From assembly GCF_001021165.1 (NCBI RefSeq), contig NZ_AZAY01000017.1:1-55149 (forward strand): 55,149 nucleotides of DNA. Reading direction: 5' to 3'. Both the position numbers and the translations under genes were made by a program. This document shows, piece by piece, positions 17,933 through 31,200 of this stretch (position 1 is the first letter of the stretch; each line of letters starts with the position of its first letter). Source of the stretch: Marinitoga sp. 1197. GTDB lineage: Bacteria > Thermotogota > Thermotogae > Petrotogales > Petrotogaceae. The notes below the pieces were generated by a model. That model was not told the origin of the DNA and did not search any database. It was given only the letters and a program-made list of their open reading frames with translations.

Positions 17933-18706
17933 ATGAAAGTTGTAATTTTGGCAGGCGGTTATGGAACACGGTTGGAAGAAGAAACAATAAGAATCCCTAA
18001 ACCTATGGTTGAAATAGGTGGAAAACCGATACTATGGCATATTATGAAAATATACTCTTACTATGGTTTTGATGATTTTATAATTTGTCTTGGTTATAAA
18101 GGATATGTTATAAAGGAATATTTTACCAATTATTATAATCATATGAGTGATATGACAGTAGATTTATCTACAGGAGATATAGAAATACATAATAGTTACT
18201 CTGAGAAATGGAAGGTTACATTGGTTGATACGGGATTAAATACAATGACTGGCGGGAGAATAAAGAAAATAAAAAAATATTTAAATAATGAAAGATTTAT
18301 GCTTACTTATGGTGATGGGGTTGGAAATGTAAACATTAAAAAACTTGTTGAATTTCATGAAAAACATAATAAATTGGCAACTATTACAGTTGTTCAACCA
18401 ATAGGAAGATTTGGTGTTTTGAATATAGATAAAGATAATTCCGTTAAATCATTTATAGAGAAACCAAAAAGTGAAAATTCGAGAATTAATGCGGGTTTTT
18501 TTGTTTTAGAACCACAAGTTATTGATTATATAGTCGATGATAATACTGCGTGGGAAGATGGGCCGCTTGAAAAATTGGCAAAAGAGAGTAACTTAATGGC
18601 TTTTCATCATGATGGATTTTGGAAGCCAATGGATACTTTAAGAGATAAGCATGAGCTTGAAAGATTATGGAACACCGGAAAAGCTCCATGGAAATTATGG
18701 GAATAA
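17933..18706 (+). CDS. rfbF: Glucose-1-phosphate cytidylyltransferase
   Basis: 257 aa, full length. The nucleotidyltransferase signature begins at residue 6 (AGGYGTRL), followed by IPKPMVEIGGKPI. The TYGDG metal site and the EKP segment are present, and the C-terminal WKPMDTLRDK is typical of RfbF/DdhA. It makes CDP-glucose from CTP and glucose-1-phosphate, the entry step to CDP-linked 3,6-dideoxyhexoses. The next two steps are encoded in the same operon (CDP-glucose 4,6-dehydratase at 28817 and 3-dehydrase at 29899), which supports the call strongly. GGGGGAA precedes the ATG. Confidence 0.93.
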   Translation: MKVVILAGGYGTRLEEETIRIPKPMVEIGGKPILWHIMKIYSYYGFDDFIICLGYKGYVIKEYFTNYYNHMSDMTVDLSTGDIEIHNSYSEKWKVTLVDTGLNTMTGGRIKKIKKYLNNERFMLTYGDGVGNVNIKKLVEFHEKHNKLATITVVQPIGRFGVLNIDKDNSVKSFIEKPKSENSRINAGFFVLEPQVIDYIVDDNTAWEDGPLEKLAKESNLMAFHHDGFWKPMDTLRDKHELERLWNTGKAPWKLWE

Positions 18707-18718
18707 GGAGGAACTACT

Positions 18719-20242
18719 ATGATTGAATTGTTTAAAAAACCATTATTTGTTTTTGAAATGGCAAACAACCATCAGGGAAATGTTGAGCATGGAAAAAGAA
18801 TTATTCGAGAAATAAAAAAAGTTATTAAAGAATTTGAAGATATATTTGATTTTGCATTTAAATTCCAATATAGGGATTTAGATACGTTTATTCACCCTGA
18901 TTATAAAAATGATTTTTCTTACAAATATATAAAACGTTTTTCGGAGACAAAATTAAGTGAATCTCAGTTTTTAGAGTTAAAAGATGAATTAGAAAAAAAT
19001 GAATTTATAACAATGTGTACACCCTTTGATGAGAATTCCGTTAAAAAAGTTATAAAGCATAATTATGACATAATAAAAGTAGCGAGTGCATCTTTTACTG
19101 ATTGGCCATTGTTAGAGGAAATTTCAAAATATGATAAGCCAATCATTGCTTCAATAGCTGGCGCAACATTAAATGAAATAAGAAATGTTATATATTTCTT
19201 TAAACATAGAGGCAGAAATATTAATATTATGCATTGTGTTGCTGCATATCCTACAACAGACGAAAAATTAGAATTAAATCAGATTGATTTGTTGAAAAAT
19301 GAATTTCCTGACATTAATGTAGGTTTTTCAACGCATGAAAAACCAGATAATTTTGATGCTATAAAAATAGCTATTGCAAAAGGGGCTACCATATTTGAAA
19401 AACATGTTGGAATTGAAACAGATAAAATAAAATTAAATGCATATTCTGCTAATCCAGAACAAGTTTATAAATGGTTAAAGTCGGCAAAAAAAGCATATAT
19501 AATGTCCGGAGTTCGAGGAAAAAGATATTCATTTTCAAAAGGAGAACTTACATCCTTAAAAAATCTAAGAAGAGGTATATTTGCATTAAAAAACATTTCA
19601 AAAGGTCAATGTATAACTATGAATGAAGTTTTTTTTGCCATACCAAGACAAAATGGGCAATATGCATCTAATGATATGTCTAAATATAAAAAGTTTGTAG
19701 CCAAAAAGGATATTAAAGCATATGAACCGATTTCTGAAAACAATGTTGAGATAAAAGATTTATATCCTCAGATAAAAGAATATGTGAGAGAAATTCTCGA
19801 TATTGTTAGGAAAAGTAATGTTGTAATTCCAGAAAATAGTGTCTGTGAGCTTTCACATCATTATGGATTGGATAATTTTAAAAACTTTGGAGCAGCAATT
19901 ATAGACATAATAAATAGAGAATATTGCAAAAAAATAATTATATTACTTCCTGGACAAAAGCACCCTGAACATTATCATAAACAAAAAGAAGAAACATTTA
20001 ATGTATTATATGGAGATTTTATAATAAATATAGATAGTCAAGAAAGAGTTTATAAAACCGGAGATATTATAATAGTGGAAAGAAATAAAAAACACTCTTT
20101 TTATAGTGAAACAGGTGCAGTTATTGAAGAAATTTCAACAACACATTTCAAAAATGATTCATTCTATAGTGATAAAAAAATCCAATCTAACAAACACAGA
20201 AAAACACAAATTTATTTAACAGAAGATATGTTATCTTATTAG
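18719..20242 (+). CDS. NeuB-family sialic-acid-type synthase with SAF and cupin domains
   Basis: 507 aa. Residues 1-260 are a NeuB TIM barrel (EMANNHQGN near the start, FKFQYRD, KVASAS, EKHVGIE). Residues about 275-345 are an antifreeze-like SAF domain. Residues about 385-490 form a cupin with a HPEHYHKQKEE metal motif and a second His in NKKHSF. NeuB enzymes condense phosphoenolpyruvate with an amino sugar to give a nonulosonate. The appended cupin may bind or isomerise a sugar. No CMP-nonulosonate synthetase or UDP-GlcNAc epimerase is in the window, so the product is unknown. AAGGAGG precedes the ATG. Confidence 0.8.
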   Translation: MIELFKKPLFVFEMANNHQGNVEHGKRIIREIKKVIKEFEDIFDFAFKFQYRDLDTFIHPDYKNDFSYKYIKRFSETKLSESQFLELKDELEKNEFITMCTPFDENSVKKVIKHNYDIIKVASASFTDWPLLEEISKYDKPIIASIAGATLNEIRNVIYFFKHRGRNINIMHCVAAYPTTDEKLELNQIDLLKNEFPDINVGFSTHEKPDNFDAIKIAIAKGATIFEKHVGIETDKIKLNAYSANPEQVYKWLKSAKKAYIMSGVRGKRYSFSKGELTSLKNLRRGIFALKNISKGQCITMNEVFFAIPRQNGQYASNDMSKYKKFVAKKDIKAYEPISENNVEIKDLYPQIKEYVREILDIVRKSNVVIPENSVCELSHHYGLDNFKNFGAAIIDIINREYCKKIIILLPGQKHPEHYHKQKEETFNVLYGDFIINIDSQERVYKTGDIIIVERNKKHSFYSETGAVIEEISTTHFKNDSFYSDKKIQSNKHRKTQIYLTEDMLSY

Positions 20243-20250
20243 GTGGAATT

Positions 20251-21387
20251 ATGGATAAATTTAAAGAATTAGAAGATTGATTAAAAAAACAATATATTTC
20301 ATATTCTGAACAATTTTCTTTATATCATTTAGTAAAAGGAAAAAAAATATTGTTATATGGTTGCGGAAGTGGATGTATAACCTTTTTTTCAATAGTATTA
20401 GATAGGTATAATGATATAAAAATAGATGGAATTATCGATAAAAGAGCAGAAAATGGAGAAAAGTTTAGAGATATTCCTTTATTTAACCCAGAATCTTTAA
20501 ATATACATGACACTGAGAATTATGTAGTAATAATAACTGTTGGAAAGAAAGAATATTATAATGAAATTTTCAATATACTTAAACAAAAGAATTTTAAAAA
20601 TATTATTTTAGCAAATCAAATATATGAATATCATCTTCATTTTACAAGTCATGAAATAGAGAAAATGAGTTTTTCATATTATAAAAAGCAAAAGGATAAA
20701 ATATTAAAAGTTTTCACATTATTTTCGGATAAATTAAGTATAGATATTTACTTAAAATATTTAAAAACACATAATATATAAATGCCTCAAGAATTACCTT
20801 GTGAAAGTGTGGAAAAGCAATACTTTCCTGATGATATAATTATGAATTACTCGAGGTTTATTAATTGTGGTGCATATAATGGAGATACTATAAGAAATCT
20901 TGTAAAATACAAAGGAAAGCAAGAGTCTGTAGTTTGTTTTGAACCAGATTTAATTAATTATAGTAAATTGATTAAATATATTAATAACAATAAAAAAGAT
21001 ATAGCGGATGCAATTTTCGCATATCCATGTGGAGTATATTCTAAAACAACACAAATTTTCTTTTCATCAGGAAATAATACCAACAGTAAAATATCAGCTA
21101 ATGGAAAAGATCTTATACAAACAGTAAAATTAGATGATGCGTTGATTAATTATTCTCCAACATTTATTCAGATGGATATAGAAGGAGCTGAAATAGAAGC
21201 AATAAAAGGTGGTTCCATATTGATCTCTACGTATAAACCTGATTTAGCTATTTGTGTTTATCATAGTGCGGAACATATATGGGAATTTCCATTAATGCTA
21301 AATAAATTAAATCCTGATTATAAATTTTATTTAAGAAATTATACTGTATATATAAGTGAAACTGTATTATACGCTAGGAGTGAATAA
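20251..21387 (+). pseudogene. Broken FkbM-family methyltransferase gene (two in-frame stops)
   Basis: GGTGG precedes ATG 20251, but codon 10 is TGA (20278-20280). The same frame continues through a Rossmann-like segment (LLYGCGSG...GIIDK) and is stopped again by TAA at 20779-20781. It then continues without a frame change through an FkbM methyltransferase domain (NCGAYNGDT, CFEPD, QMDIEGAE). Read through both stops, the order Rossmann module, linker with QYFPDD, FkbM domain matches a standard single-chain architecture of about 378 aa. The ATG at 20782 has no ribosome binding site. I conclude that two nonsense mutations inactivated one gene; sequencing error in both places is less likely. Confidence 0.7.
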
Positions 21388-21907
21388 ATGAACGATTTCA
21401 AACCGTTAAAAACTATTCAAGGAATGAGTATAAAAGATTTAAAAAATTTTATAAATGAAAAAGACGTATTTATATGGGGTGTTGGGAAATTAGGGAGAGT
21501 TATAAAAAAGAATCTTGAAAAATAAAATACATATAAAAGGATTTTGTGATTCAGATACAAAAAAAGTGGGAACCATAATTGAAGATAAAAGAGTTTATTC
21601 TTCAAATAAAGCGATTGAATTGGCAAAGAAAAAAAAGGCTGTTTTAATTTTGGCTGCAGCACAATATAAACATGAGATGGAACAAATATGTAAAGAATTT
21701 GGATTAAAAAAGAAGATTGATTATATAACTTATATAAATATTAGACGCCCAGAAGCTGTTGTGGAAATATCGGGGATATGTAATTTAAATTGCGTATTTT
21801 GTCCGCAAGGAAATATGAAAATAAAGAAAGGAATAATACCTTATAGAATATATAAGGGAGTGGCACCTAAAACTATTTTACCAGAGGTAAAATTTAAAAA
21901 CAAGTAA
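21388..21907 (+). pseudogene. Remnant 1 of a radical SAM gene with N-terminal Rossmann-like module
   Basis: ATG 21388 follows AGGAG. The frame encodes 45 residues including IWGVGKLGRV and ends at TAA 21523. The protein clearly continues in the +1 frame from about 21515 (KGFCDSDTKKVG...), so a base is missing from the A-run near 21517-21524. The continuation reaches the radical SAM cysteine motif CNLNCVFC and then diverges and stops at 21907, before most of the TIM barrel. The gene therefore has both a frameshift and a 3' truncation. Its closest match in the window is the next remnant. Confidence 0.7.
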
Positions 21908-21991
21908 ATAATACATCAAGTAAATAATAAACAATAAAAAATTCTCAACAAAAAACTATTAATATTAAAATATATAGCTAAAGATACTTAA

Positions 21992-23079
21992 ACCAATATA
22001 ATATATTCACTTTTCAAAGAGCATAATAATAATAATAATAATATAATTATTAATAATTATTCTATACTAATTATACGAGGGAGAGGTTTTTTAAAAGCGT
22101 TGGAAAGAAACGGTTTTAAAATAGAAGCTTTTTTAGATAGTTCTCCAAAACTTATTGGAGAGTATTATGAAGGGATACCTATTTTAGATCCGAAAGAAAT
22201 TTTTGAAGACAAAAATAAATTAAACAATGCTTTTATACTTACGGCAAGTGTAGATAAAAAAAATAAAGAAATGTTTAAAATATGTGAAAAATATGGATTA
22301 GAGAAAGGTAAAGATTTTATAAACATCCAAAGGTTTACACCATATTATCCAGTAATTGAAATTTCCGGTTCTTGTAATTTAAGTTGCATTAGCTGTCCAA
22401 GAGGGGATTTTAAAAACAGGTTTAAAAAGACTGGGTTTATGAATATAACAGATTATGAAAGAGTAATAAAAAAACTGATTGCCGAGATGCCTTTTTTATA
22501 CTTGGTAGATTTATATGTTTGGGGAGATCCTTTTTTACACCCTAAACTCCCCGAAATTATAAAAATAAATAATAAATATGGAATTGCTGGTGGTATATCG
22601 ACTAATCTAAATTATGGAAATAATATTGAAGAAATTATAAAATCAAAACCTCCACAAATAAGAGTTTCAGTTTCAGGATATGGTTCGGAACATTATGAAA
22701 TAACCCATAAAAATGCAAAATGGGATATATTCAAACTGGAAAATTACCAACTAATGCTCAAAAAGGTGCGGATATAATGTTAGTATCACTTGATGATATG
22801 CTTAAAAATGCGAAGAAAGAAAAAGATAAGAATTGCCTTTTAAAAAGAATTGTGCCTGTAATAAATTGGGATTTATCTGTAATGCAGTGTTGTAATTACA
22901 CATATAGAAAATTAGCAGATAATTATCTTGATATAACATTTGAAGAAGTAATTAAATTAAGAGAAAACCACCCTTTATGCAAAACGTGTCAAAAATATGG
23001 ATTACATAGATATTTTAATCCTTTATATTATTCTGATTATATTGATAATTTATTAAAGGTGGAGATAAAAAATGAATAA
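21992..23079 (+). pseudogene. Remnant 2 of a radical SAM/SPASM gene
   Basis: An open frame begins after a stop at 21989-21991 but has no ATG, GTG or TTG until 22100. It reads through an (AAT)n run encoding about seven Asn, then the Rossmann-like module (FLKALERNG...FLDSS) and the radical SAM motif CNLSCISC, and ends at 22777. The C-terminal part, with SPASM-like cysteines (MQCCNY, LCKTC), continues in another frame from about 22720 to 23079. The join skips what should be roughly 50-60 residues of barrel, so there is an internal deletion plus frameshift as well as a damaged start. It overlaps the next gene by eight bases. Confidence 0.65.
22023..22045 (+). repeat. (AAT)n microsatellite inside radical SAM remnant 2
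   Basis: A run of about seven AAT units in a coding-like frame, expected to give poly-Asn. It lies between the remnant's first residues and the glycine-rich loop. Just upstream, 21901-21913 and 21917-21929 are a 13-base direct repeat (CAAGTAAATAATA). Confidence 0.7.
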
Positions 23080-24187
23080 ATGTCGTGTGTGTGGTGGAGA
23101 AGTTGAAACACTATATAGTATTGAAAATTTACCAGCAAAATCCCAATTTTTCCCTGATGAACATAGTTTAAGAAAAGATAAAAGTATATCTTTAAATATT
23201 GCTCAATGTACATCATGCGGGCTCATACAATTGATTAATGAGCCCGTTTCATATTATAAAACAGTAATTAGGGCTACATCTGTATCAAGTGAAATGAAAA
23301 AATTCAGATTAAAACAATTAAAACAGTTTTTTGAGAAATATGATTTATATAATAAAAAGTGTATAGAAATAGGAAGTGGAAATGGTGATTATTTAAGTAT
23401 ATTAGCAGAAATTAGCAAAAATGTATATGGTTTTGAATATTCTAGTGAGAATATAAAATATATAAAAGAAAAAGGCTTAAAAGCTATTCAAGGATATATA
23501 GATACTGAAAAATATGAATTACCAGATAAACCATATGATGCCTTTTTTATGTTTAATTTTTTAGAACATGTGCCAGAGCCAGTAACCTTTTTAAGAGGTT
23601 TATCAAATAATTTAAATGATAACGGAATTGGTATAATAGAGGTTCCAAATTTTAACATGATAAAAAAAGAAAAAATGATTTCAGAATTTACCATAGATCA
23701 TCTATCTTATTTTACAAAAGAAACGTTTGAAATAACTTTAAGAATAAGTGGATTTGAGATAATTGAAATAAATGAAATATGGAATGACTATATAATATCA
23801 GCAATAGTAAAAAAAAGAAAGAAATTAAATTTCTCTGGATTTCAGGCATTTCAGGAAACATTGAAGAAAAATATTTATGATTTTATTAACAAATATCCAG
23901 ATTTTGCAATTTGGGGAGCTGGGCATCAAGCATTATTTGTAATGGCTGCTTTGAATTTAGGAGATAAATGTAGATATGTTATAGATTCTGCAAAATTTAA
24001 GCAAAATAAATATACTCCAGCAACGCATATTAAAATAGTATCCCCTAACTATTTAAGAGAAAACCCTGTTAAGGCGATTATTATAATGGCGGGAAGTTAT
24101 TCCCATGAAATAAAACAAAAATTATTAGAAGAATATCCTGAAATAAAAATAGCGATTTTAGAAAAGAATAAATTGAAAATAATATAA
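23072..24187 (+). CDS. Sugar C-methyltransferase-like SAM methyltransferase
   Basis: 371 aa. The N-terminal zinc ribbon (C4, C7 in CRVCG, and CTSCG near residue 50) precedes a class I methyltransferase domain with EIGSGNGDY and a FLEHVPEP loop. The C-terminal third is a Rossmann-like module (AIWGAGHQALF...VIDS). This three-part order matches C-methyltransferases that act on NDP-4-keto-6-deoxy sugars (TylC3/NovU type). GGTGGAG precedes the ATG, which lies within the end of the preceding remnant. A C-3 branch on the CDP-4-keto sugar made by this operon is plausible but unproven. Confidence 0.78.
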   Translation: MNKCRVCGGEVETLYSIENLPAKSQFFPDEHSLRKDKSISLNIAQCTSCGLIQLINEPVSYYKTVIRATSVSSEMKKFRLKQLKQFFEKYDLYNKKCIEIGSGNGDYLSILAEISKNVYGFEYSSENIKYIKEKGLKAIQGYIDTEKYELPDKPYDAFFMFNFLEHVPEPVTFLRGLSNNLNDNGIGIIEVPNFNMIKKEKMISEFTIDHLSYFTKETFEITLRISGFEIIEINEIWNDYIISAIVKKRKKLNFSGFQAFQETLKKNIYDFINKYPDFAIWGAGHQALFVMAALNLGDKCRYVIDSAKFKQNKYTPATHIKIVSPNYLRENPVKAIIIMAGSYSHEIKQKLLEEYPEIKIAILEKNKLKII

Positions 24188-24197
24188 CGGAGGTAAG

Positions 24198-25331
24198 ATG
24201 ATGAAGAAAAAAATTGATTATAAAGTTCAAGAGAGCGAAGATTTAAAAAGGAATGAATTAAAAGAGAAAAAACCTTATGTTTATGAAAAAATTTTAAAAT
24301 TTGAAGAAAAAGTAAAGCGTGGAGAAAGCATTGCTATAATACAATTTCAGTATAATTATGCATGTAATTTTAATTGTGTTCACTGTGGTATTTCGCAACT
24401 AAGAAAACCCGGTGCAAGGAGTTTTACACCAGAAGATGTCAAGGAATTATCTAGACAAGCTGATGAAATGGGTTTAGCCCATTTTGTTATAACTGGTGGA
24501 GAACCATTGGTTTTTCCAGATTTAGATGAGGTAATAAAAGCCATAGATCCACAGAAATTTTATATATCCCTTGATACAAATGGATGGTATTTTGATGAAG
24601 AAAAAGCTTTTCATTTGAAAGAATTGGGAGTTGACAAAATACAATTAAGTCTTGATAGTTTAAATGAAATAGAGCATGATGAATTTAGAAAGAAAAAAGG
24701 TTCTCATGCAAGAGCATTAAGAGCTATAGATGCTGCAAAAAAAGCAGGGTTAAACATTATAATTCAAACAGTAGTTACCAAACAAAGGGTTTATTCTGAA
24801 GAGTTTGAAGAATTTTTGAAATTTTTAAACAGCAAAGATGTAGGTGTTTTTGTAACTTATGCAAAACCTGTAGGAAACTGGGAAGGAAACTATGATGTAT
24901 TAGTAACTAAAAAGGATATGGATTATGTTAGAGAACTTGAAAAGAAATATAATGTATTTACACATTTAACTCCTGGATATGGTTTGGATCTTGGATGCAT
25001 TGCAGTAAAAAGAATGATATCAGTTACTCAATATGGCGATGTTATGCCATGTCCATATATACATGCATCGTTAGGAAATGTGTTTGAAGAACCATTAAAA
25101 GATATCATTGAAAGAGGATTAAAGATAAAATGGTTCGGAAAATATGTTGATACATGCTTAATTGCAGAAGACAAACACTTTATAGAAGAATACGATTCGA
25201 AAAGAATATATGGGAATAAACCATTACCAGTACCGTGGTTTAAAGTTTTTGATGAGAACGACTACATAAAAGATGAAGAAAAACTCAAAACAGAGAAAAC
25301 AAAAAATGGGTATTTAAGATGGAGGAAATAA
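24198..25331 (+). CDS. Radical SAM protein with SPASM-like C-terminus
   Basis: 377 aa. The [4Fe-4S] motif CxxxCxxC is at C56, C60 and C63, followed by the GGEP SAM-binding motif (ITGGEPLVF). The C-terminal part has CIAVKRMISVTQYGDVMPCPY, a SPASM/Twitch-like segment with further cysteines. Such proteins modify peptides, proteins or small molecules by radical chemistry. The position inside a deoxysugar operon, two bases before the SDR gene and eleven after the C-methyltransferase gene, points to a sugar or glycan substrate. I cannot name the reaction. GGAGGTAAG precedes the ATG. Confidence 0.75.
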   Translation: MMKKKIDYKVQESEDLKRNELKEKKPYVYEKILKFEEKVKRGESIAIIQFQYNYACNFNCVHCGISQLRKPGARSFTPEDVKELSRQADEMGLAHFVITGGEPLVFPDLDEVIKAIDPQKFYISLDTNGWYFDEEKAFHLKELGVDKIQLSLDSLNEIEHDEFRKKKGSHARALRAIDAAKKAGLNIIIQTVVTKQRVYSEEFEEFLKFLNSKDVGVFVTYAKPVGNWEGNYDVLVTKKDMDYVRELEKKYNVFTHLTPGYGLDLGCIAVKRMISVTQYGDVMPCPYIHASLGNVFEEPLKDIIERGLKIKWFGKYVDTCLIAEDKHFIEEYDSKRIYGNKPLPVPWFKVFDENDYIKDEEKLKTEKTKNGYLRWRK

Positions 25332-25332
25332 G

Positions 25333-26385
25333 ATGAAACTAAATCAAAGATTTGAAGAAGACCTTGATTTTATTTTGAAAGAATTAAAAGAAGAATTTAA
25401 AAAAATAAAAAATGAAAAAATTTTTATTACAGGTGGAACAGGATTTTTTGGTAAATGGTTTTTAGGAAGTATATTAAGAGCTAATGAGAAATTGAATACA
25501 AATATAAAAATTGGTGTATTGTCAAGAAATCCAGAAAAATTTAAGAAAAATTTTCCGTACTTAAGTAATGAAAAATATGTAAATTTTTATAAAGGAGATA
25601 TTAGAAATTTTGATTTTCCAAATGAAAAATTTTCATATATTATACATGGAGCCAGCGCTTCTGCAGAAGGATGGTTCAAAGGTGAAAATCAAATTATCAG
25701 AATTGAAACTATAACTGCTGGCACAAAAAGAATTTTAGAATTTGCAAAGAAAAACAAAATAAAAGGTTTTTTATATATGAGTTCCGGTAAGGTTTACGGA
25801 ACTCATTCTGATATTTACGAAAAAATTCCTGAATACTATTGTGGAAATTTATGTTTTGAAGATCCGAATGCGGCATTATCAATCGGGAAAAAGATGGCTG
25901 AATTTTTAACTTTAGAATATTCGAAAAACTATAATATTCCAGTAAAAATAGCCAGGGGATTTGCTTTTGTAGGACCTTATTTGCAATTGAATTTGCATTA
26001 TGCTATTGGAAATTTTATTAGAGACGCCTTGAAAGGAGGTCCAATAGTAATAAAGGGAGATGGGAAAGCATTAAGATCATATTTATATGCAGCAGACGCA
26101 ATAATATGGTTTTTTAAGATATTGATAAATTCAAAAAATAGATCAATATATAATGTTGGATCAGAAAATATTGTATCAATAAAAGAAGTAGCTGAATTAA
26201 TCAATTCCGTATCTAATAAAAAAATGGAAATTATAATTCAAAAAAAGGAAATTTCAAAAAAAGTAGATAAATATATACCGTCAACGAAAAAAATAAAAGA
26301 AGAACTTGGAGTGAGAGAGTATACATCTTTAAAAGATGCAATAATAAAAACTATAGATTTTTATAGAAAAGAGGGATTAAAATGA
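25333..26385 (+). CDS. Extended SDR (NAD-dependent epimerase/dehydratase family) lacking the catalytic Tyr
   Basis: 350 aa with a long N-terminal extension before the dinucleotide motif GGTGFFGKW (about residues 34-42). SSGKVYG marks the catalytic Ser region. The usual YxxxK is L182-S-I-G-K186: the lysine is kept but the tyrosine is leucine (TTA at 25876-25878). The rest, including ARGFAFVGPY and LRSYLYAAD, matches CDP/dTDP-sugar reductases and epimerases. It sits directly before the TPP-enzyme gene; in yersiniose synthesis the reductase YerF accompanies the TPP enzyme YerE, so a similar pairing is possible. The lost Tyr makes a normal reductase mechanism doubtful. Confidence 0.75.
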   Translation: MKLNQRFEEDLDFILKELKEEFKKIKNEKIFITGGTGFFGKWFLGSILRANEKLNTNIKIGVLSRNPEKFKKNFPYLSNEKYVNFYKGDIRNFDFPNEKFSYIIHGASASAEGWFKGENQIIRIETITAGTKRILEFAKKNKIKGFLYMSSGKVYGTHSDIYEKIPEYYCGNLCFEDPNAALSIGKKMAEFLTLEYSKNYNIPVKIARGFAFVGPYLQLNLHYAIGNFIRDALKGGPIVIKGDGKALRSYLYAADAIIWFFKILINSKNRSIYNVGSENIVSIKEVAELINSVSNKKMEIIIQKKEISKKVDKYIPSTKKIKEELGVREYTSLKDAIIKTIDFYRKEGLK

Positions 26386-28178
26386 TGAAACTTTCCGATT
26401 ATGTTTTTAATTTTATTGCAAATTTAGGGGTAAAACATGTGTTTATGCTTCCAGGTGGAGGTTGCATGCATCTTGTAGACTCACTGGGAAAAAATAAAAG
26501 ATTAAAATATATAACCAATTTAAATGAGCAAGCAGTTTCTATTAGCGTTGAGTCATATGCTCAGGCTACAAATAATATAGGGGTGGGCTTAGTAACCACT
26601 GGACCTGGAGGAACAAACGCAATAACTGGAGTTGCTGCTGGATGGGTTGATTCAACTCCTATGTTAATAATTTCCGGACAGGTTAAAACTAAGGATATGA
26701 TTAAAGATTCAAAATTAAGGCAAAAAGGTTTTCAAGAAATTGATATAATATCTTTAGTAAAACCAATTACAAAGTATGCAGTAACGATAACAGATGCAGA
26801 AGACATTAGATACCATCTTGAAAAAGCTGTTTATCTTGCAACTACAGGACGACCAGGACCAGTATGGATCGATATTCCATTGGATATACAGGCTGCGATT
26901 ATAGATGAAAAAAAATTAAAAGGTTATATTCCACCAAAATCAAATTTTGATGATGATATAGATAAAAAAATTGAGTTATTAATTGAAATGATAAAAGAAT
27001 CAAAAAAGCCAGTAATACTTGCTGGAAATGGCATAAGATTAGCAAAAGCGGAAAAATTATTTTATTCAGTTATTGAAAAATTAAATATTCCAATATTATT
27101 AACTTGGAAAGCTATAGATTTTCTTGATGAAAATGATCCATTAAATTTTGGAAGACCTGGAGCTATCGCCTCAAGATATGCCAATTTTATACAACAAAAG
27201 TCCGATCTTTTTATTTCTATTGGTGCAAGATTAGATACAGGGCAAACAGCATATAATCATAAAAATTTTGCACCATATGCAAAAAAAGTCATAGTAGATG
27301 TGGATAAAAATGAAATAGATAAATTAGAAATGGATATAGAGTTAAAAATTGTAAGTGATGCATATAGATTTTTAGATATATTAAATAGAAAAATAAGAAA
27401 AATAGAATTTAAGAGAAAAGATAAATGGTTAAGTTTCTGTAAATCATTAAAAAACAAATATCCTATTATAAAAGATGAATATTATAAAATGAAAGATTTT
27501 GTAAATCCATATGTATTAATAGATATTTTGTCAAAAAAATTAAGCAAGAATGATGCAATTATTCCAGGAAGTTCAGGATTATGTAGCGAAATTACTATGC
27601 AATCATTTAAAGTAAAAAAAGGACAAAGAGTCTATAATAATGAAGGATTTGGAGCTATGGGATTTGGATTACCTGCTTCAATTGCAGGAGCTATTGCATT
27701 AAACAGAAGAACCATATGTATTACAGGAGATGGCGGAATTCAAATGAATATACAGGAATTAGAAACGTTAAGAAGATTGAATATACCTTTAAAATGTTTT
27801 ATTCTTGACAATAAAGGATACGGTTCTATTGTAAATACACAAAATAACTATTTTAATGGAAATTATGTGGGCAGTAATGAAAGTAGTGGATTAACTTTAC
27901 CTGATATGAAAAAAATAGCGCATGCATATAGTTTGAAATTTTATGAATTAAGAAATAATAAAGACTTAATTAATAAAATAGACGAAATACTTGATTATGA
28001 GGGACCTGTAATTTGTAATGTTAAAATTCCTGAAATTTATACAACTATTCCAAGAACAAAATCAAAAATAGAAAATGGGAAAATAATAACTCTCCCTATG
28101 GAAGATCTGTGGCCGTATTTGGATAGAGAAGAATTTAATAATATCATGTCAGAAAAAGAGGGATATTATGAAATATAA
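26382..28178 (+). CDS. Thiamine-diphosphate enzyme, acetolactate-synthase-like (YerE-like candidate)
   Basis: 598 aa. The ATG overlaps the stop of the SDR gene (ATGA). Three ThDP domains are seen: the PYR domain with catalytic E49 in NLNEQAV, a central domain (about 195-345), and the PP domain with the GDGG motif at about residue 449 followed by LDNKGYGS. No regulatory subunit (ilvN) is adjacent, and the gene lies inside a CDP-deoxysugar operon. This argues against ordinary branched-chain amino acid synthesis. YerE of Yersinia is a homologue that adds a two-carbon unit from pyruvate to CDP-3,6-dideoxy-4-ketoglucose; the same role is my preferred inference. Confidence 0.8.
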   Translation: MMKLSDYVFNFIANLGVKHVFMLPGGGCMHLVDSLGKNKRLKYITNLNEQAVSISVESYAQATNNIGVGLVTTGPGGTNAITGVAAGWVDSTPMLIISGQVKTKDMIKDSKLRQKGFQEIDIISLVKPITKYAVTITDAEDIRYHLEKAVYLATTGRPGPVWIDIPLDIQAAIIDEKKLKGYIPPKSNFDDDIDKKIELLIEMIKESKKPVILAGNGIRLAKAEKLFYSVIEKLNIPILLTWKAIDFLDENDPLNFGRPGAIASRYANFIQQKSDLFISIGARLDTGQTAYNHKNFAPYAKKVIVDVDKNEIDKLEMDIELKIVSDAYRFLDILNRKIRKIEFKRKDKWLSFCKSLKNKYPIIKDEYYKMKDFVNPYVLIDILSKKLSKNDAIIPGSSGLCSEITMQSFKVKKGQRVYNNEGFGAMGFGLPASIAGAIALNRRTICITGDGGIQMNIQELETLRRLNIPLKCFILDNKGYGSIVNTQNNYFNGNYVGSNESSGLTLPDMKKIAHAYSLKFYELRNNKDLINKIDEILDYEGPVICNVKIPEIYTTIPRTKSKIENGKIITLPMEDLWPYLDREEFNNIMSEKEGYYEI

Positions 28179-28812
28179 GCATTTATTTTTTGATATGGAC
28201 GGTACTTTATTTGACACATCAGAAGGTATTATATTTTCTATGCAAGAAGCATTTAAAAAAAATAACTTAGAACCTTTATCAAGAGACGAAATACTAAAAC
28301 TTATAGGTCCAACGTTAGATGAGATTATGGATATAATCTTTGGAATTGAGGATAACCCTTTAAAGTTTAAAATTAGAAAAGATTTTAGAGAGTTATATGC
28401 AGAAAAAGGGGTATATATGTTAAATTTATACCCATATGTACTGGAAACATTAGAAGAATTATACAATAAAAATAATAATATGTATATTATAACGTCAAAA
28501 CCAGAAATTTTTGCCAACAAAATACTAAAAAAGTTTAAGATGGATAAATATTTCAAAAAAGTTGTCGGAGTTCCTTTAGAAGGTAATGTTTTACCAAAAA
28601 AAAATAGATTGAAAAAATTAATTACAGAACTTGAAATATCTTCAAATAGTAGTGTGATGATTGGAGATACAAAAAGTGATATTGATGCGGCAAAATATAA
28701 TAACATTGACATGATATGTGTTTCTTATGGTTTTTGCCAAAACAAATCAAATTTTAATAATTGTACTGTTGTTATAAATAAATTTAATGAATTACTTAAG
28801 ATCGTGGAGTGA
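28168..28812 (+). CDS. HAD-family phosphatase (Gph/PgmB-like)
   Basis: 214 aa. Motif I DMDGT (Asp nucleophile near residue 8), motif II in YIITSKP, a lysine in the following segment and motif IV GDTKSDIDAA are all present with a helical cap of the phosphoglycolate-phosphatase type. It overlaps the TPP-enzyme gene by eleven bases and is followed five bases later by the CDP-glucose dehydratase gene. A sugar-phosphate or repair phosphatase acting in the glycan pathway is likely. The substrate is unknown. Confidence 0.8.
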   Translation: MKYKHLFFDMDGTLFDTSEGIIFSMQEAFKKNNLEPLSRDEILKLIGPTLDEIMDIIFGIEDNPLKFKIRKDFRELYAEKGVYMLNLYPYVLETLEELYNKNNNMYIITSKPEIFANKILKKFKMDKYFKKVVGVPLEGNVLPKKNRLKKLITELEISSNSSVMIGDTKSDIDAAKYNNIDMICVSYGFCQNKSNFNNCTVVINKFNELLKIVE

Positions 28813-28816
28813 TAAT

Positions 28817-29896
28817 ATGAATCAATTCTATAAAAACAAAAAAATATTAATAACAGGACACACAGGATTTAAAGGTTCATGGCTTTCATTGTGGTTATTA
28901 AAAATGGGAGCAAAAGTAATAGGTTATGCTTTAGATCCTTATACTCAAAGAGATAACTTTGTATTATCAAATATTTCAAAAAAAATAATAGATATACGTG
29001 GGGATATAAGAGATTATAATAAATTGAAACAAGTTTTTGAAGAATATAAGCCAGAAATTATTTTTCATTTAGCAGCGCAACCATTGGTTAGATTATCATA
29101 TGAAACTCCACGAGAAACAATAGAAACAAATGTAATGGGAACAGTAAATGTATTAGAAGCGTTTAGAAATACAAGCGAATCCAAAATATTAATTAACATT
29201 ACATCAGATAAATGTTATGAAAATCAAGAATGGATATGGGGATATAGAGAAAATGATCCAATGGGTGGATACGATCCATATAGTGCAAGCAAAGGAGCAA
29301 GTGAAATAGTTTCAAGTGCATATTTAAGATCATTTTTTAATCCTAAAGAATTTGAAAAACATAATAAGGTCATAGCCACAGTAAGAGCAGGAAATGTAAT
29401 AGGTGGCGGAGACTGGGCAAAAGATAGAATAATTCCTGATTGTATAAAAGCATTAGAAGAAAATAAACCAATAGAAATTAGAAGTCCTCATGCAATTAGA
29501 CCTTGGCAACATGTACTTGAACCGTTAAGTGGATATTTACTTTTAGGTACAAAGTTAATGGAAAACCCGGAAAAATATAGTGGCCCATGGAATTTTGGCC
29601 CACATTTAAATTCAATAGTAACAGTAAAAAAAATAGTAGAAAAAGTTATAAAATACTATGGAAAAGGTAGATGGAAAGATTTATCAAATAAAAATCATCC
29701 ACATGAAGCAAAATTATTGAATTTAGATATTAGTAAAGCTAAGTTTTATCTTAATTGGGAACCAACATTAAATATAGATGAAACAATAAAACTAACTGTG
29801 GAATGGTATAAAAATTATAAGAAAAATGATGTATTTGATTTATGTATAAATCAAATAGAATATTTCGAGAATAAAATAAAGTGGTTGGAGGATTAA
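28817..29896 (+). CDS. rfbG: CDP-glucose 4,6-dehydratase
   Basis: The start is placed at ATG 28817 behind GTGGAGTG; an upstream frame extension to 28787 would overlap the HAD gene. The product is 359 aa, normal for RfbG/DdhB. The NAD motif GHTGFKGSW, the TSDKCY catalytic segment and YSASK (Tyr/Lys pair) are intact, and the [13 protein letters not shown] and [10 protein letters not shown] segments are specific to this enzyme. It converts CDP-glucose to CDP-4-keto-6-deoxyglucose. It lies two bases before the rfbH gene and in the same operon as rfbF. Confidence 0.93.
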
Positions 29897-29898
29897 AA

Positions 29899-31200
29899 AT
29901 GGAAGAAATAAGAAAAGAAATAATAGAACTTACAAAAAAATATGCAAAAAATAAAATAAAAAAAGAATTTATACCTGGAAAAACAGTAATACCATTTGCT
30001 GGAAGAGTATTTGATGAAGGAGAATATATAAATCTTGTTGAAGCATCACTTGATGGATGGCTTACAACAGGAAGATTTGCAGAAAAATTCGAATATGAAT
30101 TTGCAAAATTTTTTGGAGTAAAAAGTGTAACGTTGGTAAATTCTGGCTCCTCCGCAAACTTGTTAGCATTATCTGCATTAACATCAAAAAAACTTGGAGA
30201 AAGAAGAATAAAGCCTGGCGATGAAGTAATAACAGTAGCGGCTGGATTTCCAACTACAGTAAATCCCATAATACAAAATGGAGCAATACCAGTTTTTATA
30301 GATGTTGATATACCAACATATAACATAAAAGCAGAAGAAATAGAATCTGCTATTACAGAAAAAACAAAAGCTATAATGATAGCTCATACATTAGGGAATC
30401 CTTTTAATTTATATGAAGTAATGAGAGTAGCTAAAAAATACAATTTATGGGTAATAGAAGATATATGTGATGCAGTTGGTTCAACATTTAACGGGAAATT
30501 AGTAGGAACTTTTGGAGATATAGCAACAGTAAGTTTTTATCCTGCACATCACATCACAATGGGTGAAGGCGGAGCAATACTGACAAACAACCTACAATTA
30601 GAAAGACTGGTAAAATCATTTAGAGATTGGGGAAGAGACTGTTATTGCGAACCAGGGTTCAGTAATACATGTGGAATGAGATTTAAACAACAACATGGAA
30701 CATTACCTTTTGGATATGATCACAAATATGTATATTCACATATAGGATATAATTTAAAATTAACAGATATGCAAGCTGCGGTAGGAGTTGCACAATTAAA
30801 AAAATTACCAGAGTTCATAGAAAAAAGAAAACGAAATTTTAGATTGCTGAAAGAAGGACTTAAAAAATATGAAGAATATCTTATATTACCAGAACCAACA
30901 CCAAAAAGTGATCCATCATGGTTTGGGTTTCCAATAACTGTAAAAGATAATGACAAATTTTCACGATGGGATATAGTAACTTATTTAGAAGAAAATAAAA
31001 TAATGACAAGAATGTTATTTGGAGGAAATTTAACAAGACAACCGGCATATGAAGATGTGAAATATAAAATTCATAAAGAGCTAATAAATACCGATATAAT
31101 AATGAATAATACGTTTTTTATAGGTGTATATCCTGGTATTACAAATGAAATGATTAATTATATAATAAATACATTTGAAAAGTTTTTTGAGAATTATTAA
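29899..31200 (+). CDS. rfbH: CDP-4-keto-6-deoxyglucose 3-dehydrase (PMP-dependent E1)
   Basis: The start is ATG 29899, preceded by TTGGAGGA. The product is 433 aa. The fold is that of an aspartate-aminotransferase-type sugar aminotransferase, but the usual PLP lysine is replaced by H217 in [14 protein letters not shown]. That is the hallmark of RfbH/DdhC dehydrases, which use PMP to remove the C3 hydroxyl. C248, C250 and C258 lie where these enzymes bind a [2Fe-2S] cluster; a fourth ligand is not obvious. The partner reductase (E3, ddhD) is not in the window. It is the last gene of the operon. Confidence 0.92.

Follow-up and report, generated by a model that had tools for sequence, protein, structure and literature searches.

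The window, the entire 55,149-nucleotide contig G000:C17 (NZ_AZAY01000017.1) of the AT-rich 2.27-Mb genome of Marinitoga sp. 1197 (window GC 28%), contains within positions 20281-24187 four gene pieces encoding an FkbM methyltransferase, two radical S-adenosylmethionine (SAM) proteins, rSAM-A and rSAM-B, and a C-methyltransferase (C-MT). Each bears a copy of one Rossmann-like module of ~90 residues, N-terminal on FkbM, rSAM-A and rSAM-B and C-terminal on C-MT. Profile comparisons indicate that the four modules are homologous to one another and that the module belongs to the superfamily of the PglD N-terminal domain, Methyltransf_14, Rex and the CapD N-terminal domain. We consider it probable that the module is an interchangeable handle for nucleoside diphosphate (NDP)-sugars, here probably a 3,6-dideoxy or branched-chain hexose linked to cytidine diphosphate (CDP). 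C-MT is the sole unbroken gene of the four in this genome, FkbM, rSAM-A and rSAM-B being broken, and the region is composed as follows:

20281..20778 (+), FkbM-type methyltransferase, N-terminal piece with the module; TIGR03570 NeuD_NnaD over residues 22-109, E 1.5e-5, under the cut-off
20338..20607 (+), module copy 1 (FkbM); module profile E 9e-23, own sequence in the profile
20782..21384 (+), FkbM methyltransferase catalytic domain, frame unchanged past the stop; PF05050 E 2.4e-12, TIGR01444 E 1.5e-15
21388..21904 (+), rSAM-A remnant; frame 1 at 21388-21522, frame 2 at 21506-21904
21458..21733 (+), module copy 2 (rSAM-A), across two frames; profile E 7.6e-16; one TAG and one TAA within
21838..22083 (+), repeat insert in place of ~2.1 kb (end of rSAM-A, gene of what we take to be an iron alcohol dehydrogenase (Fe-ADH), start of rSAM-B)
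22076..22327 (+), module copy 3 (rSAM-B); profile E 7e-23 from profile position 12; strand 1 and most of the Gly loop gone
22078..23076 (+), rSAM-B remnant, radical SAM domain and Cys-rich C-terminus; PF04055 27.5 bits against a cut-off of 29.5
23072..24187 (+), C-methyltransferase of the TcaB9/MtmC type, intact; zinc-binding, SAM and C-terminal domains
23897..24157 (+), module copy 4 (C-MT, C-terminal; Methyltransf_14); PF08484 E 4e-9, 36.9 bits against a cut-off of 23.5

A sequence-only reading of this DNA had described a pattern common to the four proteins, namely, a hydrophobic strand, W/Y-G-x-G, a helix, D-S/D-K, P-x-x-L and then II..Y..EI. The pattern is real, with all the elements described, but the W-G-x-G loop is missing from the rSAM-B remnant of the window, where the insert at 21838-22083 has replaced it; intact relatives of rSAM-B have the loop. 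The proposed placement, N-terminal in three proteins and C-terminal in the fourth, agrees with the profile matches in FkbM, rSAM-A, rSAM-B and C-MT. Two of the gene descriptions needed correction: the module is present in the rSAM-A remnant but spans two reading frames (21388-21522, then 21506-21904), and the FkbM remnant, which also contains it, is one frame interrupted by an in-frame stop at 20779-20781. The 15-module profile used to locate the four copies includes several of those same sequences.

Excised modules can be aligned over their full length, the C-MT copy being the most divergent of the four. Hidden Markov models (HMMs) of single families were tested on 707 stop-to-stop open reading frames from the window and seven related loci. 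In this set, the FkbM HMM retrieved rSAM-B of M. lauensis (E 6e-7), the rSAM-A HMM retrieved rSAM-B (E 2e-22) and the rSAM-B HMM retrieved the window FkbM (E 1.6e-6); the C-MT HMM, a weak one, has five matches at E < 1 beyond its own family (0.008 to 0.99), all five of which are modules. The comparison of module profiles put forward in the sequence-only reading likewise links the modules: in pairwise hhalign comparisons of module sets, for which E-values refer to a one-entry database, rSAM-A and rSAM-B score 99.4%, FkbM and rSAM-B 94.8%, FkbM and rSAM-A 68.6%, C-MT and rSAM-A 77.4%, and C-MT and rSAM-B 37.7%. C-MT is tied to the other three because bridging module sets match both sides. It scores 95.5% with the other modules of a Nitrospirae locus and 89.8% with the module of a winged-helix regulator, which in turn reaches 92-98% with the FkbM, rSAM-A and rSAM-B modules and itself clears the Methyltransf_14 cut-off. 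By contrast, three other Rossmann domains of the same cluster, those of the C-MT SAM domain, the FkbM catalytic domain and the short-chain dehydrogenase/reductase (SDR) epimerase, score at most 3.2% against the module sets. The CapD-like N-terminal domain, a known relative, reaches 97%.

The three non-C-MT modules match the N-terminal part of TIGR03570 (NeuD/PglB/VioB) under its cut-off, with E 1.5e-5 to 1e-3 in the window and 1e-6 to 1.4e-4 for the intact proteins of G007 (L029), the complete genome of a same-family relative in which all four genes are unbroken, rSAM-B is duplicated and Fe-ADH lies between rSAM-A and rSAM-B. The window C-MT, which is related to TcaB9 and MtmC across its first 235 residues, meets the Methyltransf_14 (PF08484) cut-off, and the FkbM and rSAM copies have no PF08484 match at E <= 0.1 (window pieces) or E <= 0.5 (G007 proteins). 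For CoA_binding (PF02629, cut-off 22.3 bits), G007 rSAM-B1 scores 22.6 and G007 FkbM 13.4 bits, G007 rSAM-A and C-MT being unlisted. Pfam cut-offs miss most of the scanned module copies other than those of C-MT. PF17836 (PglD_N) was rejected as a module marker, being weak and unspecific: it matches at E <= 1 in 13 of 14 control genomes and at just two places in the genome of origin. The module profile matches 3nkl, Rex, VioB and the C-terminal region of MtmC (4rv9) by sequence, and the first three are still matched when the C-MT rows are left out.

Structures were predicted for an intact Nitrospirae FkbM (L035; six-row alignment) and for the M. lauensis rSAM-B (nine rows). The FkbM model has a mean predicted local distance difference test (pLDDT) score of 68.6, mostly 90-95 in the module region, where the prediction is a beta-alpha-beta fold with the Gly loop and an Asp closing strand 2, in the order E-H-E-E-E-H-E-H-E, matching 4ea7/7l7y/4m99. 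In the rSAM-B model (mean pLDDT 88.7), residues 28-119 follow nearly the same order, E-H-E-E-H-H-E-H-E. Unrelated folds had been named as the outcome that would speak against a shared module; for the two proteins modelled, FkbM and rSAM-B, the predictions instead agree in nearly the whole secondary-structure order, with pLDDT mostly at least 90. The best PDB match of the FkbM model is 2py6, an FkbM methyltransferase (332 residues, Z 18.9, root-mean-square deviation (rmsd) 5.1 A), which by sequence is matched in the catalytic half alone (E 4.5e-37). Further matches are the uncharacterised 2g6t (Z 10.8), GDP-perosamine N-acetyltransferase (4eaa/4eab/4ea7, Z ~10; 4ea7 9.9), CapD-like 3nkl (9.7), succinyl-CoA synthetase (9.7), Rex (9.6) and UDP-bound Pcryo_0637 (7l7y, 8.7); TcaB9 and MtmC are not among the matches listed for this model. 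Since these Z values are close together, the fold alone does not choose the ligand. The listed fold matches of the rSAM-B model are taken up by its radical SAM domain and are uninformative on its module; this domain has DesII, BlsE, MoaA and viperin among its best folds, along with peptide maturases, which would fit, but does not establish, a substrate that is a nucleotide or a nucleotide-sugar.

Among 15 diverse modules, a single alignment column is invariant, the Asp that closes strand 2. This Asp is kept in all 16 rSAM proteins from nine genomes, where the next residue is mostly Ser (14/16). In intact rSAM-B, the third residue of the loop is separated from this Asp by 22 residues, counted by eye, equal to the Ser13-Asp35 distance in PglD. 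According to a study of Pcryo_0637 (PMC8040287), the equivalent N-terminal domain of that enzyme is a platform for uridine diphosphate (UDP), with Ser11 and Asp40 close to the ribose and Asp41 bound to the uracil, the PglD counterparts being Ser13, Asp35 and Asp36. We take the strand-2 Asp of the module to be homologous to the ribose-contacting Asp of Pcryo_0637 and PglD, and it is because of this equivalent domain and the retained Asp that the module is proposed to hold the nucleotide of an NDP-sugar. The C-terminal domain of TcaB9, for its part, is reported to anchor a dTDP-sugar. As to the ligand, the identity of its base, the geometry of binding and the reactions of the module-bearing enzymes, we infer the following arrangement. 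The diphosphate of the NDP-sugar would sit in the Gly-rich loop past strand 1, the ribose hydroxyls would be contacted by the invariant Asp that ends strand 2, and the base by the residue following that Asp. The sugar would then reach into the active site of the catalytic domain to which the module is fused. The chemistry applied there would be O-methyl transfer by FkbM, radical chemistry by rSAM-A and rSAM-B, and C-methyl transfer by C-MT.

The surroundings of the four genes are those of a CDP-sugar pathway. The neighbouring genes are:

17933..18706 (+), RfbF, glucose-1-phosphate cytidylyltransferase; TIGR02623 412 bits, cut-off 300
18719..20242 (+), NeuB-like synthase with a cupin domain
24198..25331 (+), third radical SAM/SPASM protein; no module match in the gene
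25333..26385 (+), NAD-dependent epimerase/dehydratase-type SDR
26382..28178 (+), thiamine pyrophosphate (TPP) enzyme; best PDB match 8rph (thiamine pyrophosphate-binding protein)
28787..29896 (+), RfbG, CDP-glucose 4,6-dehydratase; TIGR02622 517 bits, cut-off 278
29881..31200 (+), RfbH, the dehydrase of the CDP-3,6-dideoxyhexose pathway; NF011936 748 bits, cut-off 423

RfbF, RfbG and RfbH all clear their equivalog cut-offs. The TPP enzyme appears YerE-like, judging by its gene context and its match to 8rph, which we take to be JanthE (the entry code is absent from the text of PMC12247030). According to that paper (PMC12247030), YerE moves activated acetaldehyde onto CDP-3,6-dideoxy-4-keto-glucose, and JanthE is described as YerE-like; a further source on yersiniose is PMC4753412. 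Because RfbF, RfbG and RfbH are equivalogs and occur with a YerE-like TPP enzyme, the substrate line is likely a CDP-linked branched 3,6-dideoxyhexose. The context was surveyed in nine other genomes with rSAM-A/B relatives, over 13 to 58 kb of DNA each: RfbG (at least 46% identity) and the TPP enzyme are found in six of the nine, RfbF and RfbH (>50% identity) in five each, C-MT in six (G292 settled by Pfam) and FkbM in six, broken in M. lauensis. The fusion of NeuB and cupin domains, which sits in this CDP-dideoxysugar cluster, has relatives across both parts in G003, G007, Nitrospirae and Proteobacterial loci. Three functions had been offered for the module. The nucleotide-sugar function is the best supported of these, given the matches to PglD/VioB/PerB-type proteins and to the C-terminal family of C-MT, the invariant Asp and the CDP-sugar cluster; a common carrier function finds no support, as no attachment-site motif was seen in the aligned modules, which fold like a nucleotide-binding domain.

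The module is found on further enzymes in a Nitrospirae metagenome-assembled genome (MAG; L035/G041), where it occurs, at either end, on 10 of 15 consecutive genes (L035:2398-20308): two FkbM, rSAM-A, rSAM-B, four other rSAM, one glycosyltransferase family 2 (GT2) and one SDR gene. Genome-wide profile matches at E <= 1e-4 are clustered, with 10/13 within 17 kb in G041, 4/6 within 4 kb in the genome of origin, 5/7 within 7 kb in G007 and 5/5 within 9 kb in G292, whose rows lie outside the profile. The rSAM fusion itself is sporadic: it was found in 5/398 Pseudomonadota genomes (including the starting genome, G042) and in 1/39 genomes of the phylum of a Riflebacteria MAG, the one being that MAG. 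Four of 148 Nitrospirota genomes match at E <= 1e-20, the module-spanning matches being in the starting genome G041 only, and a search of 41 Thermotogota with the rSAM-B piece gave strong matches (E < 1e-30) in the genome of origin, G003 and G007. Profile A2 was rejected as a genome-wide marker, as it also matches ~220-aa regulators and ~620-aa CapD-like proteins across Thermotogota; its raw match counts are not counts of the enzyme-borne module, and it contains many of the sequences that it retrieves. The ~220-aa matches are not Rex, to which they had been assigned: those in the loci read are regulators with a winged helix and a C-terminal copy of the module. One such regulator of ~216 aa (L039:1153-1800), present in several Petrotogales loci, carries the module at its C-terminus (Methyltransf_14 28.2 against 23.5 bits) and weakly resembles TIGR04176 MarR_EPS regulators; a 221-aa frame in the genome of origin (G000:C12:45852-46100) is taken as the same regulator from its length and matches. 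It is possibly an NDP-sugar-sensing switch of exopolysaccharide genes. Tentatively, one portable NDP-sugar handle may have been shuffled to either end of rSAM, FkbM, C-methyltransferase, SDR, GT2 and MarR-like regulator proteins as a modular system by which the enzymes of a pathway recognise one nucleotide-linked substrate, an idea for which we would claim somewhat less than even odds. If true, the system would resemble carrier-dependent assembly lines with the nucleotide as the carrier, and these rSAM enzymes would act on CDP-sugars.

Several observations weigh against a role in binding NDP-sugars and lend weight to other explanations. The PF17836 cut-off of 23.4 bits is unmet by the FkbM modules of the genome of origin (13.9) and of G007 (15.4), and G007 rSAM-A, rSAM-B1 and C-MT are unlisted in the same scan. 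A profile of the rSAM and FkbM modules alone misses TcaB9 and MtmC at E <= 1. In two of the nine surveyed loci (G043, G402), the stretch examined contains no clear CDP-sugar genes, and the G313 contig (12.9 kb) encodes the TPP enzyme and C-MT and has none of RfbF/G/H. In addition, Rex scores equal those of VioB among the profile matches, and in Rex this fold serves to bind NAD(H). The module could in that case bind NAD(H), NADP(H) or CoA, as do Rex and succinyl-CoA synthetase, and give each enzyme a redox or cofactor-sensing input. Fold matches to these two proteins also equal those to PglD-type domains, many of the rSAM proteins have GxGxxG followed by Asp, the typical NAD pattern, and G007 rSAM-B1 barely clears the CoA_binding cut-off. 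However, the third Gly is absent from the FkbM and C-MT modules, the three catalytic chemistries have no common need for NAD or CoA, and NDP-sugars are the common theme of C-MT, the PglD-type acetyltransferases and the cluster, so that we regard cofactor binding as unlikely.

Equally doubtful, in our view, is a role in docking or dimerisation, in which the module would be a scaffold gathering the enzymes of a pathway and ligand binding would be secondary or lost. Its presence at either end of so many consecutive rSAM, GT2, SDR and FkbM genes of the Nitrospirae MAG would suit such a role, and so would a Proteobacterial rSAM-A (L033:7458-8738) that lacks CX3CX2C although its module and its C-terminal Cys residues are retained. 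Because the motif is lost but the module is kept, this protein, which appears to be a dead radical SAM enzyme and perhaps a scaffold, suits docking better than a handle and also counts against the NDP-sugar role. Against a scaffold, the strand-2 Asp retained in all the rSAM proteins would be needless, and identity to the first alignment row is below 25% for 9 of 14 modules, leaving little conserved surface. Finally, the four modules might share a generic Rossmann resemblance and no special relation. The direct hhalign comparison of the C-MT and FkbM modules gives 2.7% only, that is, background, a further point against a common handle, and the many-module profile also matches other module-like proteins across Thermotogota, CapD-like ones included. 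Such a resemblance is nevertheless disfavoured and seems very improbable, since the SAM-methyltransferase, FkbM methyltransferase and SDR Rossmann domains of the same cluster stay at background where module pairs reach up to 99%, and the Petrotogales regulator module, matching both Methyltransf_14 and the FkbM/rSAM modules, bridges C-MT to the rest. An NDP-sugar handle is the reading that we retain as the more probable.

The broken genes of the window can be understood by comparison with relatives, intact versions being present in G007 and in distant MAGs. The FkbM catalytic piece clears the TIGR01444 cut-off (57.9 against 37.7 bits), and the single FkbM stop may stem from sequencing error. 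In rSAM-A, the frame changes near 21510 and homology stops near 21837, shortly past the CX3CX2C motif, each Cys of which is present in 15 of 16 aligned rSAM proteins. rSAM-B begins inside its own module and has a 193-bp deletion and a frame change near 22725. The loss of ~2.1 kb between the two was judged by comparison with M. lauensis (G003). Sequencing error is an unlikely cause of the rSAM-A and rSAM-B breaks, because ~2.1 kb are replaced by the repeat and 193 bp are deleted. A second copy of the ~240-bp insert lies at G000:C50:1960-2201 and differs solely in the length of an AAT run; the repeat also partly matches C1:65927-66047, and its right part has relatives in several G005 contigs. 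Both radical SAM remnants of the window fall under the PF04055 cut-off, which is cleared by the intact G007 rSAM-A (45.2 bits) and rSAM-B1 (50.7 bits). The tandem rSAM-B copies of G007 (L029:13710-16450) share 93% identity overall and do not differ at all in the module and for some way past it, which suggests a recent duplication or conversion. The M. lauensis cluster (L028, G003:C9) is also frame-broken in several genes, namely, those for a glycosyltransferase, FkbM, rSAM-A, C-MT and SDR; long-read assembly errors may have contributed, as the record naming includes 'quiver'.

If the proposed role is correct, the module would be a sequence marker for rSAM, FkbM and other unassigned enzymes whose substrates are sugars still linked to a nucleotide, prior to glycosyl transfer. 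In that case, the cluster would also supply a concrete set of candidate rSAM reactions in CDP-branched-sugar biosynthesis. The fusion of the module to rSAM and its use as a shared handle across a pathway were not found in the open-licence literature, subscription papers being outside the scope of the search. Module fusions to FkbM and C-MT are already known (2py6 and Methyltransf_14, respectively), the former having a solved representative because 2py6 matches the FkbM model over 332 residues. The intact FkbM model aligns with this protein of Methylobacillus flagellatus with the N-terminal domain included, although the sequence match is confined to the catalytic half and the rmsd is large at 5.1 A. 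The Methyltransf_14 domain (TcaB9, MtmC), of which the window C-MT is a member, is likewise a C-terminal Rossmann-like domain on an NDP-sugar enzyme, whereas the rSAM and FkbM copies are N-terminal and unmatched by PF08484 within the E-value limits given above. Rex (C-terminal domain) and CapD-type proteins (N-terminal domain, 3nkl) share the superfamily by profile and fold, but Rex binds NAD(H) and regulates transcription, and the partner domains differ. The PglD-type sugar N-acyltransferases (PglD, VioB, PerB, Pcryo_0637; PF17836, TIGR03570) share with the module its fold, Gly loop and strand-2-end Asp, its N-terminal position and a place in nucleotide-sugar pathways; their catalytic partner, however, is a left-handed beta-helix acetyltransferase, whereas here it is rSAM, FkbM or C-MT, and the modules stay under the PF17836 and TIGR03570 cut-offs. 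At the level of the pathway, the cluster resembles yersiniose-type CDP-branched-sugar biosynthesis in having RfbF/G/H and a YerE-like TPP enzyme, to which it adds rSAM-A, rSAM-B, FkbM and Fe-ADH.

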